From Clostridiales bacterium (GTDB taxonomy: Bacteria > Bacillota > Clostridia > Lachnospirales > Lachnospiraceae): DNA of 64,000 nucleotides. The DNA lies in the NCBI GenBank assembly GCA_020859995.1, contig JAJBVE010000057.1, positions 1 through 64,000 on the forward strand, written 5' to 3'. The notes under the pieces were generated by a model. That model ran no database searches. It had not been told where the DNA came from and saw only the letters and a list, made by a program, of their open reading frames with translations. Positions 53,701 through 60,999 of this stretch are shown here, in pieces. A program made the position numbers and the translations under genes. The first letter of the stretch is position 1; each line of letters begins with the position of its first letter.

Positions 53701-53988
53701 GGAGGAATGCTCCGGTATGGCATCTCTGTGAACGGAGAGGCTCCCCGGATGGTGGCAGTCACATCGGATGGCTACCGCGGAGGCGACCCGGGATGTGCTG
53801 TCTGGTGCGAGGCTGTGCTGAACCAGGAACATGTAGCAGAGGTTCCGGTGAGTCTGCGCGAGGGGCTCAACCGCATTACGGTTTATGCGGGAGATGCCGG
53901 TATCGTCCTGGAGAGGCTGACGCTGGAACAGGATGGTACCAGGATCCTTAAGTCCTATCTGGGAGCCCCGGTGAGCTATCGGGTGTGA
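50728..53988 (+). CDS. GH115 family xylan alpha-1,2-glucuronidase
   Basis: 1086 aa; ATG 50728 chosen because AAAGGAGG is too close to the GTG at 50716. No signal peptide. GH115 core motifs: VRYRGFFINDEWPCFGNWTFSHYQGFTAEMYDKVFEYLLRMKGNYLWPAMWSSSF, YIGMSHHEPCMRSGAEFSIF, IGMRGENDSKM and FCEDNFNNMRALP. GH115 enzymes remove (4-O-methyl-)glucuronic acid from internal or terminal xylose of xylan fragments. Residues 151-224 are a hydrophilic insert (NEGGTSAQRKNSGTGHGFAKADITG and onward) between the N-terminal domain and the barrel. The C-terminal beta-rich domains are present. Confidence 0.93.
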   Translation: MAKLRLNDYINVILDPAAAQGIRRIGAKVATDVEATTGAKSQVILPDTVPGLPQAILVAELGHDALAETLMERLPELEKLKGRWESYGFFLIEKPLPNVEEGLVIVGSDRIGTIYGMFHLSELLGVTAWGFWGDAAPPAARGVILTDSELNEGGTSAQRKNSGTGHGFAKADITGTGQGLEEKSASRYEQSLTDGRDALSGKEVRDTASGMDSFAHTYPRDVYSWGEKRQRPILPTETIYVKNGISKEPSVRYRGFFINDEWPCFGNWTFSHYQGFTAEMYDKVFEYLLRMKGNYLWPAMWSSSFLLDGPGLASMELATEYGIYIGMSHHEPCMRSGAEFSIFKGEHSPYGNDWSYVTNKEGLLKFWEDGLARVRGQNVFPTIGMRGENDSKMLGDDSTIEENVRLLKEIITEQRKLIAKHINPDLKKVPQLLAIYKEVEDYFFGNEEASGLSDFEELDDVTLMFCEDNFNNMRALPQEMAQYAFDPSKDRDRLPAHPGGYGMYYHVDYHGSPISYEWVNSTPITKIWEQMTEAWEYGIREVWILNVGDVKFNEYPLGYFLSLAYDFDTYGLDGLDNTLAYTEEWIRSLFGKLVDEEKVSEITWVLKESVDLHSLRRAEALNDTIYHPVHYGEAKQMLQRAESLEKRNEELYASLKGSLGADGYYSMIYFPAAGIANLLKMHLASGLNHLYSAQGKAVANQYGEMLEACILRDRALAKELAAFRDGKWSGMEREEHIGFVNWNDEDYRYPVRHMLTLPDHPRLVVSRADRTKTFTNQYFPVPLTIRDFENAGTDQVTLQVANGGCGTVDWQIVGESECFEITPSCGSTALQTEVTVRVLRERIPAHETVEFRCQVRAGRECVPLLITARNPELDGIPKGAFLVQEGICVWDAAEFVDSTPGMAEEEMCTGKNACGIPDGEKHVSEAAAAFQMLRDYGKYGSGMKVFPTTAVFDENDWKQGLAPSLSYEIWTPEAGAYRLSLHTSPANPLVYGGMLRYGISVNGEAPRMVAVTSDGYRGGDPGCAVWCEAVLNQEHVAEVPVSLREGLNRITVYAGDAGIVLERLTLEQDGTRILKSYLGAPVSYRV

Positions 53989-54008
53989 CGGACAGAAACG
54001 AGAGTGAA

Positions 54009-54235
54009 CCTGCATCAAAACGCGATGCAGGACATGGAGGGAGAGCCGCGCCATTAGAAATCGCGCCTGAGCGCGATGGGCACGGCCTGCGTCCTGCATC
54101 AAAACCCGATGCAGGATATGGAGTGGAGAGCCGCGCATGCAAAATCGCCTGATGGCGATGGCGCGGCCTACATCCTGCATCAAAACCCGATGCAGGATAT
54201 GTAGTGGAGAGCCGCGCATGCAGCAAAATTCCGCT
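54009..54235. repeat. Hairpin repeat family A, about 2.7 tandem units before the dehydrogenase
   Basis: The hairpin CCTGCATC-aaaac(g/c)c-GATGCAGG occurs at 54009, 54093 and 54173. Between copies lies GAGAGCCGCGC ... GCGCGGCCT(G)CGTC with an inner hairpin: ATCGCGC/GCGCGAT in one unit and ATCGCC-tgat-GGCGAT in the next, i.e. paired changes. The same layout is seen at 25193-25344. Confidence 0.88.
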
Positions 54236-55325: not shown

Positions 55326-55347
55326 GAGCGTGCTGCCTGATGCCACC

Positions 55348-55443
55348 TATCAGGGTCATAAGGGATCCACCAGCAAGCTGGTCCCCCTTATGACATATCA
55401 GGGTCATAAGGGATCCACCAGCAAGCTGGTCCCCCTTATGACA
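55348..55443. repeat. 48-bp perfect tandem duplicate of a long palindrome (repeat family B)
   Basis: Units 55348-55395 and 55396-55443 are identical. Each folds as GTCATAAGGG-atcc-ACCAGC-aa-GCTGGT-cc-CCCTTATGAC: a 10-bp outer and a 6-bp inner stem. The core (AAGGGGgACCAGCttGCTGGTGGATcCCTT in reverse) recurs in the glgC leader. Confidence 0.92.
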
Positions 55444-55841
55444 TTGATTGCGAACAATTTTTCCACACCCGGGAGACGGGCTTTTTGCTGGTTTTTCCCG
55501 GGTTTTCCACATTATCCACATAGTTATTCACATTTTCCACCGGGAAAACTCAGCCTTTTTTGGTGGACAAGTAGATTTACATAATATTTCGACAGATTTC
55601 GCGGAAATTCGACTGAAATATGCGGATGGGGAATTATTGTCAACCAGTTATCCACATTATCCACATTGTTCACAGGAAAATAACGAGATATTGGAAACAA
55701 AGGATGTGGAAAAGTTACTGTTCTCTTTTTGGAAAAAGTGTGTTATGATGGAGCCCAGATTGGATTTCGTTACAGATATGGGATATATTTTATCCGGCGC
55801 CGTAATGGATGCCGGACATGTATAGAAAAGGATGGCCAGCA
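55444..55841. other. Non-coding region ahead of dnaD
   Basis: About 400 bp without a supported gene. It contains the DnaA-box cluster, an AT-rich core (55555-55645) and a probable promoter (TTCTCT, 17 bp, TATGAT at 55744-55749). The ORFs listed here lack ribosome binding sites and similarity to anything known to me. Confidence 0.7.
55459..55713. promoter_or_regulatory. Cluster of eight DnaA-box-like 9-mers
   Basis: Plus strand: TTTTCCACA (55459-55467), TTTTCCACA (55503-55511), TTATCCACA (55512-55520), TTATTCACA (55524-55532), TTATCCACA (55648-55656), TTATCCACA (55657-55665), TTGTTCACA (55666-55674). Minus strand: TGTGGAAAA (55705-55713). Three are exact matches to the consensus TTATCCACA, and boxes abut head to tail at a 9-bp pitch. 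An AT-rich stretch lies between the two groups. This could be a DnaA-controlled promoter region, a DnaA titration site or an origin-like element. Confidence 0.8.
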
Positions 55842-57080
55842 ATGAAGATATACTCGGACGCGCCGGAAGGCTCTACGGTGGTACAAAATTCATTTATTGA
55901 TCAGTATATGCCCCATGCGAATGGGGAATTTGTCAAGGTATATCTGTATTTGCTGCGCTGCGCAGACAGCGGACGGGAGCTCTCCCTCGCTTCTATTGCC
56001 GATGTTTTTGAGCATACGGAGAAGGATGTCCGGCGGGCACTTACCTACTGGGAGCGGCAGCGGCTTTTGCGGATCGGGACCGGACCGGACGGCGCTCTGG
56101 TGTCTGTGACATTTACGGATCCCGGCTGTTATTCTACACCTGCAGCCCCGGAAGGGCAGGAGGAAGGTGCGGCAGGTCTCTACAGTGACGGGATTTCTTC
56201 TTACGAGGAGCAGCCGTTCCGGGACGCACGGGCCTGTGAAGAGAAAAAGTCTGCTCCAGACGGAGCAGGGGCGGCGCTTTCCGGAACGGCGCCTATTGCT
56301 GGCCCTGATACATCGGGAAGCCGCCCAAATGGTGCTTTCGGGAAAGAAATCTCAGATGAAAAGCGGGAAGATTCCGACAGGACGAAAGATCCAGACGGAC
56401 CGCAGGAAGAGATGCCTTTGCCGGGGGCACTTTCTGAGAAGGCACAGAGCGATTTAAAAGAGCTGTTTTTTGTGGCGGAGCAGTATCTGGGCAGGCCTCT
56501 TTCCGCCACAGAGCAGAATGATTTTGTCTATTATTATCATACACTCGGGTTTTCCGCAGACCTGATTGAGTACCTGCTGGAATACTGTATCACGAAGGAT
56601 GTGACCAGCCGCCATTATATGCGGAAGGTGGCGCAGGGCTGGGCCAGATCCGGGATTAAGACCGTACAGGACGCTAAGAAAGAGTCCGGCCGGTACAACA
56701 AAGATTATTATACCATTATGAAGGCCTTCGGGATTAAAAACCGTGCGCCCGCCCCGTCTGAGCAGGAGACGATGGCGCGCTGGCTTCATGAATACGGATT
56801 TTCCATGGAGCTTATCCTGGAAGCCTGCCGCCGCACGATTGATCAGCTCCATGAGCCGAACTTCCAGTACGCGGACAAGATTCTGACGCAGTGGCTTGGC
56901 GCGGGCGTCCAGTCTATGAAGGATGTCGGGGAGGCAGACCGGAAATGGGAGCAGGAGCAGGCCGCTAAGAAGTCTTCCCAGAGCCGTGCCCGCACCGGCC
57001 AGCCCAACCGGTTTAATAATTTCACCCAGAGAAGCTATAATTATGACAAGCTGGAAAGGCGGTTGTTTGGGCAGTCTTAG
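55842..57080 (+). CDS. DnaD-domain primosome protein
   Basis: 412 aa from ATG 55842 (AAAGGA upstream). N-terminal winged-helix part (NSFIDQYMPHANGEFVKVYLYLLRCADSGRELSLASIADVFEHTEKDVRRALTYWERQRLLRIG) as in DnaD, then a long hydrophilic linker (about 100-200). Two DnaB_2/DnaD-type C-terminal repeats follow: LGRPLSATEQNDFVYYYHTLGFSADLIEYLLEYCITKDVTSRHYMRKVAQGWARSGIKTVQDA and RAPAPSEQETMARWLHEYGFSMELILEACRRTIDQLHEPNFQYADKILTQWLGAGVQSMKD. These proteins remodel DNA and help load the replicative helicase. It is followed by the DnaC-like loader. Confidence 0.9.
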   Translation: MKIYSDAPEGSTVVQNSFIDQYMPHANGEFVKVYLYLLRCADSGRELSLASIADVFEHTEKDVRRALTYWERQRLLRIGTGPDGALVSVTFTDPGCYSTPAAPEGQEEGAAGLYSDGISSYEEQPFRDARACEEKKSAPDGAGAALSGTAPIAGPDTSGSRPNGAFGKEISDEKREDSDRTKDPDGPQEEMPLPGALSEKAQSDLKELFFVAEQYLGRPLSATEQNDFVYYYHTLGFSADLIEYLLEYCITKDVTSRHYMRKVAQGWARSGIKTVQDAKKESGRYNKDYYTIMKAFGIKNRAPAPSEQETMARWLHEYGFSMELILEACRRTIDQLHEPNFQYADKILTQWLGAGVQSMKDVGEADRKWEQEQAAKKSSQSRARTGQPNRFNNFTQRSYNYDKLERRLFGQS

Positions 57081-57181: not shown

Positions 57182-58225
57182 ATGGCATTGACAAATGCAC
57201 AGTATGATGAGATTATGCGGGAATATCAGCGCCGCCAGAATCAGGTGCGGGAGGCACTTTCGGCCAGGGAGAGGGAGGTTTATGATCGCATCCCCGAGCT
57301 GGCCAGGCTGGATGAGAGGATTGCCTCTGAGAGTACGGCGTACGCACGCGCACTGCTGGCGGAGGATGGCACAGCGGAAGACTCACCGGCTTCCCGGAGC
57401 GGCGGCGGTGAAAGCGGTATCTCTGCCTTAAAGACACGCATTGAAGAGATCAGTGCTGAAAAAGAACGCCTGTTAAAAAGGGCTGGTTTCCCGAAGGGCT
57501 ACCTGGAGCCGGAGTATTTCTGCGCGGATTGCCAGGACACCGGCTATATCGGCCAGGAGAAATGTCATTGCTTCCGCCAGGCGATCATTGACCTGCTGTA
57601 TGCACAGTCCAATCTGCGCAGGAGTATGCAGGGGGAGACCTTCAATGCATTTTCTCTGGATTATTATCCGGAAACTATGACGGATCCCGTCACCGGACTT
57701 ACGGCTGCCGAGATGGCCAGACGGGCGCTGCAGGAGTGCAGGCGCTTTGTGAGAGACTTTGACCAGGAGCCGGACAATCTGTTTCTGTCAGGAGATACGG
57801 GACTGGGCAAGACCTTTTTATCGCACTGCGTCGCAAACGCGCTTCTTGAGAGCACGCATTCTGTGGTTTATTTTTCCGCGTTCCGGCTGTTTGAACTGTT
57901 GGCGGACGCGTCCTTTGGGCGGGTTGATGCGAATGAGGCGGGGGAGATGGACCGGTATATTTATGACTGCGATCTGCTGATTATCGACGACCTGGGGACA
58001 GAACTGACCAATTCCTTTGTCGCCTCAGAATTGTTCCTGGTACTGAACGAGCGGATCCTGCGCCGGAAAAGTACACTGATATCGACCAATCTTTCTCTGG
58101 CGTCGATCGCAGATCTTTATTCAGAACGTGTGCTTTCCAGGATCACGAGCAATTACCGGATGCTGCGCCTGATCGGCGATGATATCCGTATACAGAAGCG
58201 CATTCGGGCATCCGGAGCTGATTAA
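57182..58225 (+). CDS. DnaC/DnaI-like helicase loader ATPase
   Basis: 347 aa. N-terminal coiled region, a zinc-knuckle-like CADCQDTGYIGQEKCHC, and a AAA+ domain with Walker A LSGDTGLGKTFLSHCVANAL, Walker B CDLLIIDDLGTELTNSF and the arginine-containing motif SERVLSRITSNYRMLRL. This is the family that loads DnaB-type helicases onto DNA. Residues about 60-86 are a Gly/Ser/Glu linker (AEDGTAEDSPASRSGGGESG). Pairing with the DnaD-domain gene upstream marks a primosome operon. Confidence 0.92.
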   Translation: MALTNAQYDEIMREYQRRQNQVREALSAREREVYDRIPELARLDERIASESTAYARALLAEDGTAEDSPASRSGGGESGISALKTRIEEISAEKERLLKRAGFPKGYLEPEYFCADCQDTGYIGQEKCHCFRQAIIDLLYAQSNLRRSMQGETFNAFSLDYYPETMTDPVTGLTAAEMARRALQECRRFVRDFDQEPDNLFLSGDTGLGKTFLSHCVANALLESTHSVVYFSAFRLFELLADASFGRVDANEAGEMDRYIYDCDLLIIDDLGTELTNSFVASELFLVLNERILRRKSTLISTNLSLASIADLYSERVLSRITSNYRMLRLIGDDIRIQKRIRASGAD

Positions 58226-58286
58226 ATGATTTGATTTATCTGGCTGATAAAATGAAATGATACGACGTATTTTGGGAGGAAAAAAG

Positions 58287-59468
58287 ATGGAGTTTCAAAC
58301 GGGTTATGAGAGGAATCTGGATTCGATTCCGGTCGGTGATCTGGGAATTATCGCGCTTTCAAGCTGCGAGGAGATGGGACGTAAGATCGATGCCCACATT
58401 GTAAACTGGCGTTCGGAGCGTGTGCATGAGCATCAGGGAAGTCCCCTGCTGGCCGGATATGACCGGCCGTCTTATCTGGTGAGCACTGAGGTGCCGCGTT
58501 TCGGCTCCGGCGAGGGTAAGGGACAGATCAATGATTCTGTGCGGGGCAAGGACATTTACATCCTGGTGGATGTATGCAATTACAGTGTGACATACTCTTT
58601 GAACGGCTATACAAACTGCATGTCTCCGGATGATCATTTTCAGGATCTGAAGCGTATCATCGCAGCGATCGGGGGAAAGGCGCGCAGAGTCAATGTCATT
58701 ATGCCGTTTCTCTATGAGAGCCGCCAGTTTACCCGCGCGGGCAGAGAATCTCTGGACTGCGCGATTGCCCTTCAGGAGCTTGTCAAGATGGGGGTTGAAA
58801 ATATTATCACGTTCGACGCGCATGATCCGAGAGTGCAGAACGCAATCCCCCTTCACGGATTTGAAAATATACTTCCGGTTTATCAGTTTATCAAAGGCCT
58901 GTTCCGCGCGGCCGGCGATCTTCAGATTGACCCGGAGCATCTGATGGTCATCAGTCCGGACGAAGGCGCTGCCGGGAGAGCCATCTATATGGCTAACCTG
59001 CTCGGGGTAGATATGGGGATGTTCTATAAGAGACGTGATTATGCCCGCACGGTAAATGGCAAGCATCCGGTGGTGGCGCACGAATTTCTCGGCAGAGATT
59101 TAAGCGGAAAGGACGTGGTCCTGATCGATGATATGATTGTCAGCGGCAACAGCATGCTGGCCGCGGCCGGGCAGCTGAAAAAAAGGCACGCGGGACGCGT
59201 GCTGATCTGCGCGACCTTTGGTCTGTTTACAAAGAGTCTGGAAAAGTTTGACCGGGCTTATGAGGAAGGATTGTTTGACGCGCTGGTGACCACCAATCTG
59301 GTGTACCAGCCGCCGGAACTTCTGGCAAAGCCGTACTATACAGGCTGCGATCTGAGTAAATATCTTGCATTGCTGATCGATACGCTGAACCATGACAGCT
59401 CGGTCAGCAGCCTTCTGACACCGACCGGCAGGATTCATAAGTTCCTGGCGGCGCACAAACCGCAGTAA
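58287..59468 (+). CDS. prs: Ribose-phosphate pyrophosphokinase (divergent PRPP synthetase)
   Basis: 393 aa from ATG 58287 (GGGAGGA upstream). PRPP-synthetase motifs are recognisable but divergent: IIALSSCEEMGRKIDAHIV, RGKDIYILVDVCN, MPFLYESRQFTRAGRESLDCAIALQEL, ITFDAHDPRVQNAIPLHGFENILP, VISPDEGAAGRA and the PRPP-binding loop VVLIDDMIVSGNSMLAAAGQLK. It is longer than classical Prs (about 315 aa). It supplies PRPP for nucleotides, histidine and tryptophan. Its place directly after the primosome genes is compatible with a shared transcript. Confidence 0.9.
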   Translation: MEFQTGYERNLDSIPVGDLGIIALSSCEEMGRKIDAHIVNWRSERVHEHQGSPLLAGYDRPSYLVSTEVPRFGSGEGKGQINDSVRGKDIYILVDVCNYSVTYSLNGYTNCMSPDDHFQDLKRIIAAIGGKARRVNVIMPFLYESRQFTRAGRESLDCAIALQELVKMGVENIITFDAHDPRVQNAIPLHGFENILPVYQFIKGLFRAAGDLQIDPEHLMVISPDEGAAGRAIYMANLLGVDMGMFYKRRDYARTVNGKHPVVAHEFLGRDLSGKDVVLIDDMIVSGNSMLAAAGQLKKRHAGRVLICATFGLFTKSLEKFDRAYEEGLFDALVTTNLVYQPPELLAKPYYTGCDLSKYLALLIDTLNHDSSVSSLLTPTGRIHKFLAAHKPQ

Positions 59469-59604: not shown

Positions 59605-60999
59605 TTACTTACCAAGCAGCCTTTCACCGATTTTAAACACATCTCCGGCGCCCATGGTGATCAGCAGATCCCCGGGAGCGCAATTTTCAAGCAGAAACGT
59701 CTCAATTTCATCAAAGGTTGGAAAATACCAGGCATCGGTCCCTTTCTCTGCGATCTTCTGCCCAAGCAGCTCTGAACTGACCCCCAGGTTATCAGTCTCT
59801 CTGGCTGCATAAATATCAGCCAGCACCACCTTGTCAGCCAGGGTGAGCGCGTCCGCGAATTCATCGAGCAGCGCCTTTGTGCGGGAATAGGTGTGGGGCT
59901 GGAAGACACACCAGATCCGCTTCGCCGGATATTTTTTTGCTGCCTGCAGCGTGGCCCGGATTTCGGTTGGATGGTGCGCGTAATCATCGATAATGGTGAC
60001 ACCGCCGACAACACCTTTTTTCTGGAAACGTCGGTCTGTGCCATAGAAGCTGGAAAGCCCCTCCGCGATCGTCTCCCCGGAAACACCGAGTAGGTCCGTG
60101 CAGGCAATGGCAGCCGCCGCGTTATCGACATTGTGTGCGCCGGGGACATTCAGAGAGAAATGCCCGAGAAGCCGGTCTTCCTTTTCTGCACGATCTGACG
60201 CGTACAGGTCAAAGCTCGCGCATCCGAGCTCGTCCCAGGTGATATGCTCTGCATGATAATCTCCGCACCCGGCGCCGAAGGTCACAACACGGCAGGGGAG
60301 TCCCTCGGAAAAGGTTTTCAGATCCGGAATCTGCGCATGAATGAGCAGGGTCCCTCCCACAGGGATTTTCTCCGCAAACAGGCGGAAGGAATGGCGGATA
60401 TCATCCAGATCATGGAAGAAATCCAGATGATCCGCGTCTATATTTAAGATCACGCCGATCATTGGCTGCAGATGCAGAAAACTGTTTGTATATTCGCAGG
60501 CCTCCGTCAGAAAATAATCCGAACCGCCTATGCGGATATTCCCGCCGATCGAGGGCAGGATGCCGCCGACAGAAATAGTCGGATCCAGCTTCTGGGCCAT
60601 CATAATATGGGCGATCATAGAGGTCGTGGTGGTTTTGCCGTGCGTACCGGCTACGGCAGCCGAGATCGGGTAATTTTTCATCAGCTGGCCGAGCAGCTCT
60701 GCGCGGGACATCATGGGAATCCCGGCAGCTTCTGCGGCCGCGTATTCCGGGTTGTCCGGGTGGATGGCTGCCGTGTAGACGACCAGATCAATATCGTCCG
60801 TCACATTCGCTGCACTCTGAGGGACAGAAATCCTGGCTCCCAGCTCGCCAAGATGCGCGGTCAGCTCACTTTTTTTTGAATCCGAGCCGCTGACGGTAAA
60901 GCCCCGGTCTAAAAGAATTGCCGCCAGACCACTCATACTGATGCCGCCAATGCCAATAAAATGAATATGGGCAGGGCGGCTAAAATCTATCTGATACAT
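59605..60999 (-). CDS. murC: UDP-N-acetylmuramate-L-alanine ligase
   Basis: 464 aa. Mur-ligase motifs: HFIGIGGISMSGLAAILLDRGFTVSGSDSKKS (UDP-binding), P-loop AAVAGTHGKTTTTSMIAHIM, VGGILPSIGGNIRIG, LTEACEYTNSFLHLQP, VPGAHNVDNAAAAIA and IIDDYAHHPTEIRATLQAAK. It adds L-alanine to UDP-MurNAc in peptidoglycan precursor synthesis in the cytoplasm. Complete and of normal length; start ATG 60999 with GGAGAAAT upstream. Confidence 0.97.
   Translation of the reverse strand: MYQIDFSRPAHIHFIGIGGISMSGLAAILLDRGFTVSGSDSKKSELTAHLGELGARISVPQSAANVTDDIDLVVYTAAIHPDNPEYAAAEAAGIPMMSRAELLGQLMKNYPISAAVAGTHGKTTTTSMIAHIMMAQKLDPTISVGGILPSIGGNIRIGGSDYFLTEACEYTNSFLHLQPMIGVILNIDADHLDFFHDLDDIRHSFRLFAEKIPVGGTLLIHAQIPDLKTFSEGLPCRVVTFGAGCGDYHAEHITWDELGCASFDLYASDRAEKEDRLLGHFSLNVPGAHNVDNAAAAIACTDLLGVSGETIAEGLSSFYGTDRRFQKKGVVGGVTIIDDYAHHPTEIRATLQAAKKYPAKRIWCVFQPHTYSRTKALLDEFADALTLADKVVLADIYAARETDNLGVSSELLGQKIAEKGTDAWYFPTFDEIETFLLENCAPGDLLITMGAGDVFKIGERLLGK

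Follow-up and report, generated by a model that had tools for sequence, protein, structure and literature searches.

A conserved DnaA-box array at the promoter of the helicase-loader genes dnaD-dnaC in Lachnospiraceae: comparative evidence for probable control by DnaA

In Bacillus subtilis, the initiator protein DnaA has been linked to transcription of dnaB, a gene of the helicase-loader operon. The same bacterium carries six clusters of DnaA boxes outside oriC, the removal of which leads to early initiation of replication (PMC13220808, PMC5295017). Escherichia coli DnaA prefers gaps of 2–3 bp between paired boxes, and the double boxes at nrdA, mioC, and purH, which function at promoters, are arranged head to tail and accommodate a DnaA dimer (PMC11317965). 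In Caulobacter crescentus, DnaA controls the genes for the helicase DnaB and for DnaQ, which have boxes upstream and are transcribed in a DnaA-dependent manner (PMC8203912). Clostridia possess a bipartite oriC, with one part upstream of dnaA and the other between dnaA and dnaN (PMC7561715).

The locus described here lies in a 64-kb stretch of DNA (the window) from a 4.4-Mb draft genome of a Lachnospiraceae bacterium, and consists of an array of DnaA boxes ahead of dnaD and dnaC. Like the extra-oriC clusters and DnaA regulon of B. subtilis, it is built from TTATCCACA-type boxes outside oriC, some B. subtilis clusters also being located at promoters. The array differs from the B. subtilis clusters in that it adjoins dnaD-dnaC rather than dnaB-dnaI, has another box layout, extends with one box into the coding gene upstream, and is restricted to Lachnospiraceae among the genomes compared. 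A 12-bp pitch (3-bp gap), as in the E. coli double boxes, occurs in the Lachnospiraceae array too, whereas the two boxes of its leading pair are directly adjacent (gap 0, pitch 9) and 5–10 boxes per array are common, in many genera as two phased groups. The array resembles the C. crescentus regulon in having boxes upstream of replication genes, but the target there is the helicase and here its loader, and the lineages are unrelated. With the clostridial bipartite oriC it shares two box clusters and the same box sequence, but it lacks both dnaA and a GC-skew switch and is tied to a promoter instead. A replication gene controlled by DnaA is thus of an already known kind as such. On comparison with the literature, the dnaD-dnaC target, the abutting layout, the site embedded in murC, and the restriction to one family appear to be new; searches of mainly freely accessible papers (Lachnospiraceae with DnaA boxes; murC with dnaD and DnaA boxes) returned no earlier description.

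A motif scan of the window revealed seven DnaA boxes with no more than one mismatch to TTATCCACA, at 55459(+), 55503(+), 55512(+, exact), 55524(+), 55648(+, exact), 55657(+, exact), and 55705(−), together with three boxes with two mismatches, at 55533(+), 55562(−), and 55666(+), all within the 255 bp from 55459 to 55713. The most upstream box, TTTTCCACA (55459–55467, +), is followed by a distal group on the same strand (55503–55541) that consists of TTTTCCACA, TTATCCACA, and, after 3 bp, TTATTCACA and TTTTCCACC, with pitches of 9, 12, and 9 bp; relatives show the same pattern of a pair followed by a box at +12. The proximal group (55648–55674, +) comprises TTATCCACA, TTATCCACA, and TTGTTCACA at pitches of 9 and 9 bp. 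The cluster with its abutting boxes, as well as an inverted box downstream, had been noted in an initial sequence-only reading and is borne out by the scan. The two groups described in that reading around an AT-rich core were also present, but the core itself proved to be only mildly AT-rich (60–63% AT, compared with 48% for the window).

The cluster is real and far above chance. All three exact copies of TTATCCACA in the window fall within it, and the second-densest 252-bp stretch of the window contains two boxes. The maximum never exceeded three boxes in 60 first-order Markov-shuffled windows, and seven boxes were never reached when the 300 bp around the cluster were shuffled 20,000 times (mean, 0.13; maximum, 3). 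The draft genome as a whole contains 63 exact boxes, compared with 13 matches to a control pattern, and three exact boxes occur within approximately 240 bp at only three sites: the dnaA-dnaN region (contig C149), the array upstream of dnaD (contig C71), and a site on contig C20.

The inverted box TTGTCCACC (55562–55570, −; two mismatches) is spaced 59 bp downstream from the first box of the distal pair; the corresponding spacing is 58–60 bp in several relatives. This inverted box is followed after a gap of 5 bp (approximately 14 bp start to start) by the motif TTTACATAA (55576–55584, +), which is conserved in the array core across genera; an inverted double box and then TTTACATAA form the conserved arrangement, and TTTACATAA was found in 42 of 86 regions, with 0.2 expected. 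A partner protein may bind at this motif. The second inverted box, TTTTCCACA (55705–55713, −), is present in close relatives too. The core also contains TTCGACA (55588–55594), which resembles half of a Spo0A box and occurs in 18 of 86 array-core regions (0.7 expected); the enrichment of TTCGACA and of TTGTCAAC in the core appears to derive mostly from close relatives of this genome and was not used as evidence.

The genes downstream of the array were identified from profile matches as dnaD, which encodes a DnaD/DnaB_2-domain replication initiation protein (55842–57080, +; Pfam DnaB_2, TIGR01446), a dnaC-like gene for an AAA+ helicase loader (57182–58225, +; NF005304), and a prs-like phosphoribosylpyrophosphate synthetase gene (58257–59468, +), which is likely to share one operon with dnaD-dnaC. 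The first two assignments agree with those made from the sequence alone. A riboswitch or leader RNA was rejected as an explanation of the conserved upstream region, given that no Rfam match was obtained among 11 loci and that the boxes are located upstream of the promoter.

Neither dnaA nor dnaN is present in the 64-kb window. Both genes, in the usual origin gene order, were found on contig C149, with box arrays before dnaA and between dnaA and dnaN, in line with the initial statement that the cluster is not in the classical oriC neighbourhood. GC skew does not change sign across the cluster, either in the window or in the finished genome of a relative, G160. In G160, the skew does change sign close to dnaA, although it is locally irregular immediately before. 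The distance between dnaA and the loader gene varied among finished or near-finished genomes and was, for example, 233 kb (G160), 238 kb (G026), 279 kb (G156), 288 kb (G036), or approximately 0.67 Mb (G117). Given the location of dnaA-dnaN, the constant skew, and this variable distance, the array is not oriC. The same observations bear on the proposal, made in the sequence-only reading, that it is an origin-like or auxiliary start site at which the primosome is loaded in place. Two box groups flanking a mildly AT-rich core would suit such a site, but with an oriC at dnaA-dnaN, a skew of one sign across the cluster, and a widely varying distance to dnaA, we consider it very improbable.

To assess conservation, we collected dnaD upstream regions from 97 Lachnospiraceae genomes, nearly all of different genera, of which 77 corresponded to the best loader matches and 20 to lower-scoring matches. 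Of the 97 genera, 91 had at least three boxes in the 600 bp preceding dnaD (73/77 and 18/20, respectively), a count inflated by relatedness. Conservation of the boxes before dnaD-dnaC in relatives, on which the sequence-only reading had made its interpretation depend, was thus apparent. The exact abutting pair TTATCCACATTATCCACA was detected in 115 of 200 Lachnospiraceae genomes, with the control yielding zero. In contrast, no array was found in the 39 placeable genomes of an outgroup of 40 from other families of the class (L197, in which dnaD was not recognisable, being left out), although dnaD and dnaC stay together in these genomes; one of them had a single exact box. This comparison indicates that the array is characteristic of the family and does not accompany dnaD in general. 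It can be dispensed with in some lineages, given that six genera lacked it (L044, L095, L133, L137, L211, and L216), a number that depends on the one-mismatch threshold, and that arrays were weak in the MAG relatives L236 and L242. Some genera carry only one box group, so that a loop between two groups is not universal.

In most genera, murC is located directly upstream and ends right at the array. The conserved Leu-Leu-Ile-Thr of MurC is encoded there as xTG-TTG-ATA-Axx, which on the opposite strand reads TTATCAACA, one base removed from a DnaA box and apparently the closest approach to such a box that the peptide allows. The codons xTG-TTG-ATA were used in 48 of 60 murC genes, even though TTG and ATA are rare elsewhere in the visible murC sequences, accounting for 89 of 1,042 Leu codons (8.5%) and 99 of 801 Ile codons (12%), respectively. 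In an enlarged set, the box was present in 104 of 112 murC copies adjoining the array and in none of 21 separated copies. The latter include that of this genome, in which murC is convergent (59605–60999, −) and carries the codons CTG CTG ATC ACC, without a box. The adjacency of murC and the array changed at least nine times on the DnaD tree. In L041, of the same genus, murC ends further upstream, but the box persists in intergenic DNA at an unchanged 62 bp. Among the sequence data, nothing speaks more strongly for selection on DNA binding than the box embedded in murC. Another apparent conserved box, 266 bp further upstream, was rejected as a candidate because it is explained by murC coding (conserved Tyr-Pro-His codons), with no selection for DnaA. 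Members of one family share ancestry, and the array might in principle reflect chance or descent without function; however, a synonymous-site pattern in murC would not be expected on this basis to vanish once murC is separated, nor would the spacing between boxes and promoter be fixed although leader length varies, and we regard this explanation as extremely improbable.

Comparison of the upstream regions, with the promoter being picked without reference to the boxes, yielded a common element of the form TTYTC, 17 bp, TGCTATAAT, with an extended −10 in 89 of 98 regions. In the window, the predicted dnaD promoter (55721–55749, +) consists of a −35 element TTCTCT (55721–55726), a 17-bp spacer, and the extended −10 element TGTTATGAT (hexamer at 55744–55749). 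A consensus sigma-70 scan of the window did not report this promoter because of the poor −35 element; it emerged from the comparison only. Among 148 predicted promoters of both layouts, the positions of forward boxes peaked sharply at 61, 75, and 84 bp upstream of the −10 element in the one-group layout and 76–78, 86–88, and 96–97 bp upstream in the two-group layout, with the proximal boxes of this genome starting 96, 87, and 78 bp upstream. The distance from the −10 element to the start codon is loose, with a 5–95% range of 33–130 bp.

Where two groups are present, the first distal box lies between 163 and 267 bp from the −10 element, and these distances cluster in steps of approximately 11.1 bp, with the period having been scanned over 9.5–12.5 bp. 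The phasing resultant R was 0.63 (n = 64), a strength attained by none of 2,000 jittered sets but to be read with care given that the jitter null leaves relatedness in, and it was 0.60 in a set with one genome per genus (n = 41). Steps of about one helical turn suggest a requirement for both groups to be on one face of the DNA, as would be the case in a looped or wrapped complex.

These constraints are relevant to titration, a role that the sequence-only reading had also put forward, in which the cluster would mainly sequester DnaA and delay initiation in the manner of the six B. subtilis clusters. Like datA, DARS, and those clusters, the array is a box cluster outside oriC; its boxes appear to be of the high-affinity type, it is located 233–238 kb from dnaA in two finished genomes (G160 and G026), and deletion of the six clusters results in early initiation in B. 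subtilis (PMC13220808, PMC5295017). A sink for DnaA, however, needs neither a fixed promoter distance nor helical phasing, nor would it have to stay linked to dnaD once murC has moved away, and the array holds only 3 of the 63 exact boxes of the genome. Titration is therefore at most a side effect, and we consider it unlikely as the main role. The fixed promoter geometry argues that the neighbouring gene matters.

As in the DnaA regulon, several boxes lie near a predicted promoter and are conserved at a fixed position relative to it. DnaA is also the natural candidate for the protein that binds them, given that the same 9-mer fills oriC of this genome and that its DnaA aligns through domain IV with a structurally solved DnaA. 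We therefore consider it probable, on comparative grounds, that the array forms part of a DnaA-controlled promoter for dnaD-dnaC-prs. According to this model, DnaA would occupy two clusters of boxes arranged head to tail. The proximal cluster is approximately 60–100 bp upstream of the −10 element of an extended −10 promoter whose −35 is weak; the distal cluster lies farther upstream by an integral number of helical turns and in most genera reaches into the end of murC. The DnaA bound at both clusters would join in a single nucleoprotein complex, in which the DNA between the groups would probably be looped or wrapped. This complex would regulate transcription of dnaD-dnaC-prs, thereby coupling the supply of helicase loader to the initiator. 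A response of primosome synthesis to DnaA had been among the original proposals; it is now strongly supported by the comparative evidence of conservation, fixed promoter distance, phasing, and synonymous selection in murC. The initial interpretation held in part; it had not included the promoter, the connection with murC, or the restriction to one family.

DnaA occupancy, looping, the sign of regulation, and its physiological purpose are inferred. Phased operators are typical of looping repressors, and DnaA represses dnaA in several bacteria. DnaA might thus repress dnaD-dnaC as negative feedback, with the phased groups forming a repression loop, a reading that differs from activation in sign only and that we regard as possible but rather doubtful. 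It would be consistent with the inverted box 39 bp before the −10 element and near the −35 element in this genome, and DnaA is known in both activator and repressor roles (PMC8203912). In almost all genera, however, the boxes are farther upstream than the polymerase footprint reaches, and the combination of a weak conserved −35 element (TTYTC) with an extended −10 fits an activated promoter. The location of all forward boxes upstream of the footprint, together with the poor −35 element, makes activation somewhat likelier than simple occlusion, although a position upstream of the promoter is by itself no proof of activation.

If the model of a DnaA-controlled promoter holds, DnaA would very probably control the supply of its own helicase loaders across Lachnospiraceae. 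Replication timing in gut Firmicutes beyond the Bacillus model has been little studied; the array offers a specific, conserved, and probable control element, for which the boxes, their spacing, and natural variants (one-group, two-group, and murC-separated) are defined exactly. It also appears to be a clear-cut example of a regulatory site maintained by selection within an essential coding gene by means of synonymous codons and lost once the gene moves away. We tentatively envisage a family-specific initiator-to-loader circuit, in which an array, including the site in the murC frame, became established early in Lachnospiraceae between murC and dnaD-dnaC-prs, such that loader supply, and possibly also the assembly of the primosome at the array itself, would be set by the state of DnaA; together with a conserved four-box array that is often near hpf, it would constitute a DnaA network of two sites across the family, for which no counterpart is known.

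This second conserved array has the form TTATCCACA, approximately 30 bp, TTATACAC, 4 bp, TTATCCACATTATCCACA, and is located at G000:C20:11911-11982 (L039, 9912-9983) and in the relatives L070–L088. Its strict form was found in 41 of 200 Lachnospiraceae genomes, compared with 0 for the control. It often lies between a gene for a secreted protein and hpf/secA, and is 39–66 kb from dnaA in G026, G070, and G117. In L080–L082, it is situated between two convergent genes, a setting that suggests that it may be a stand-alone DnaA site.

Two other features were observed upstream of the dnaD array in the window. Two tandem 48-nt palindromic repeats (55345–55440), able to form a strong hairpin (z = −7.9) and with five diverged copies elsewhere in the genome, occupy the junction at which relatives have murC and are probably outside the array system. 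The region at 53950–54220, before an alcohol-dehydrogenase-like gene, contains several near-repeated stretches that are visible as repeated peptides in antisense frames.
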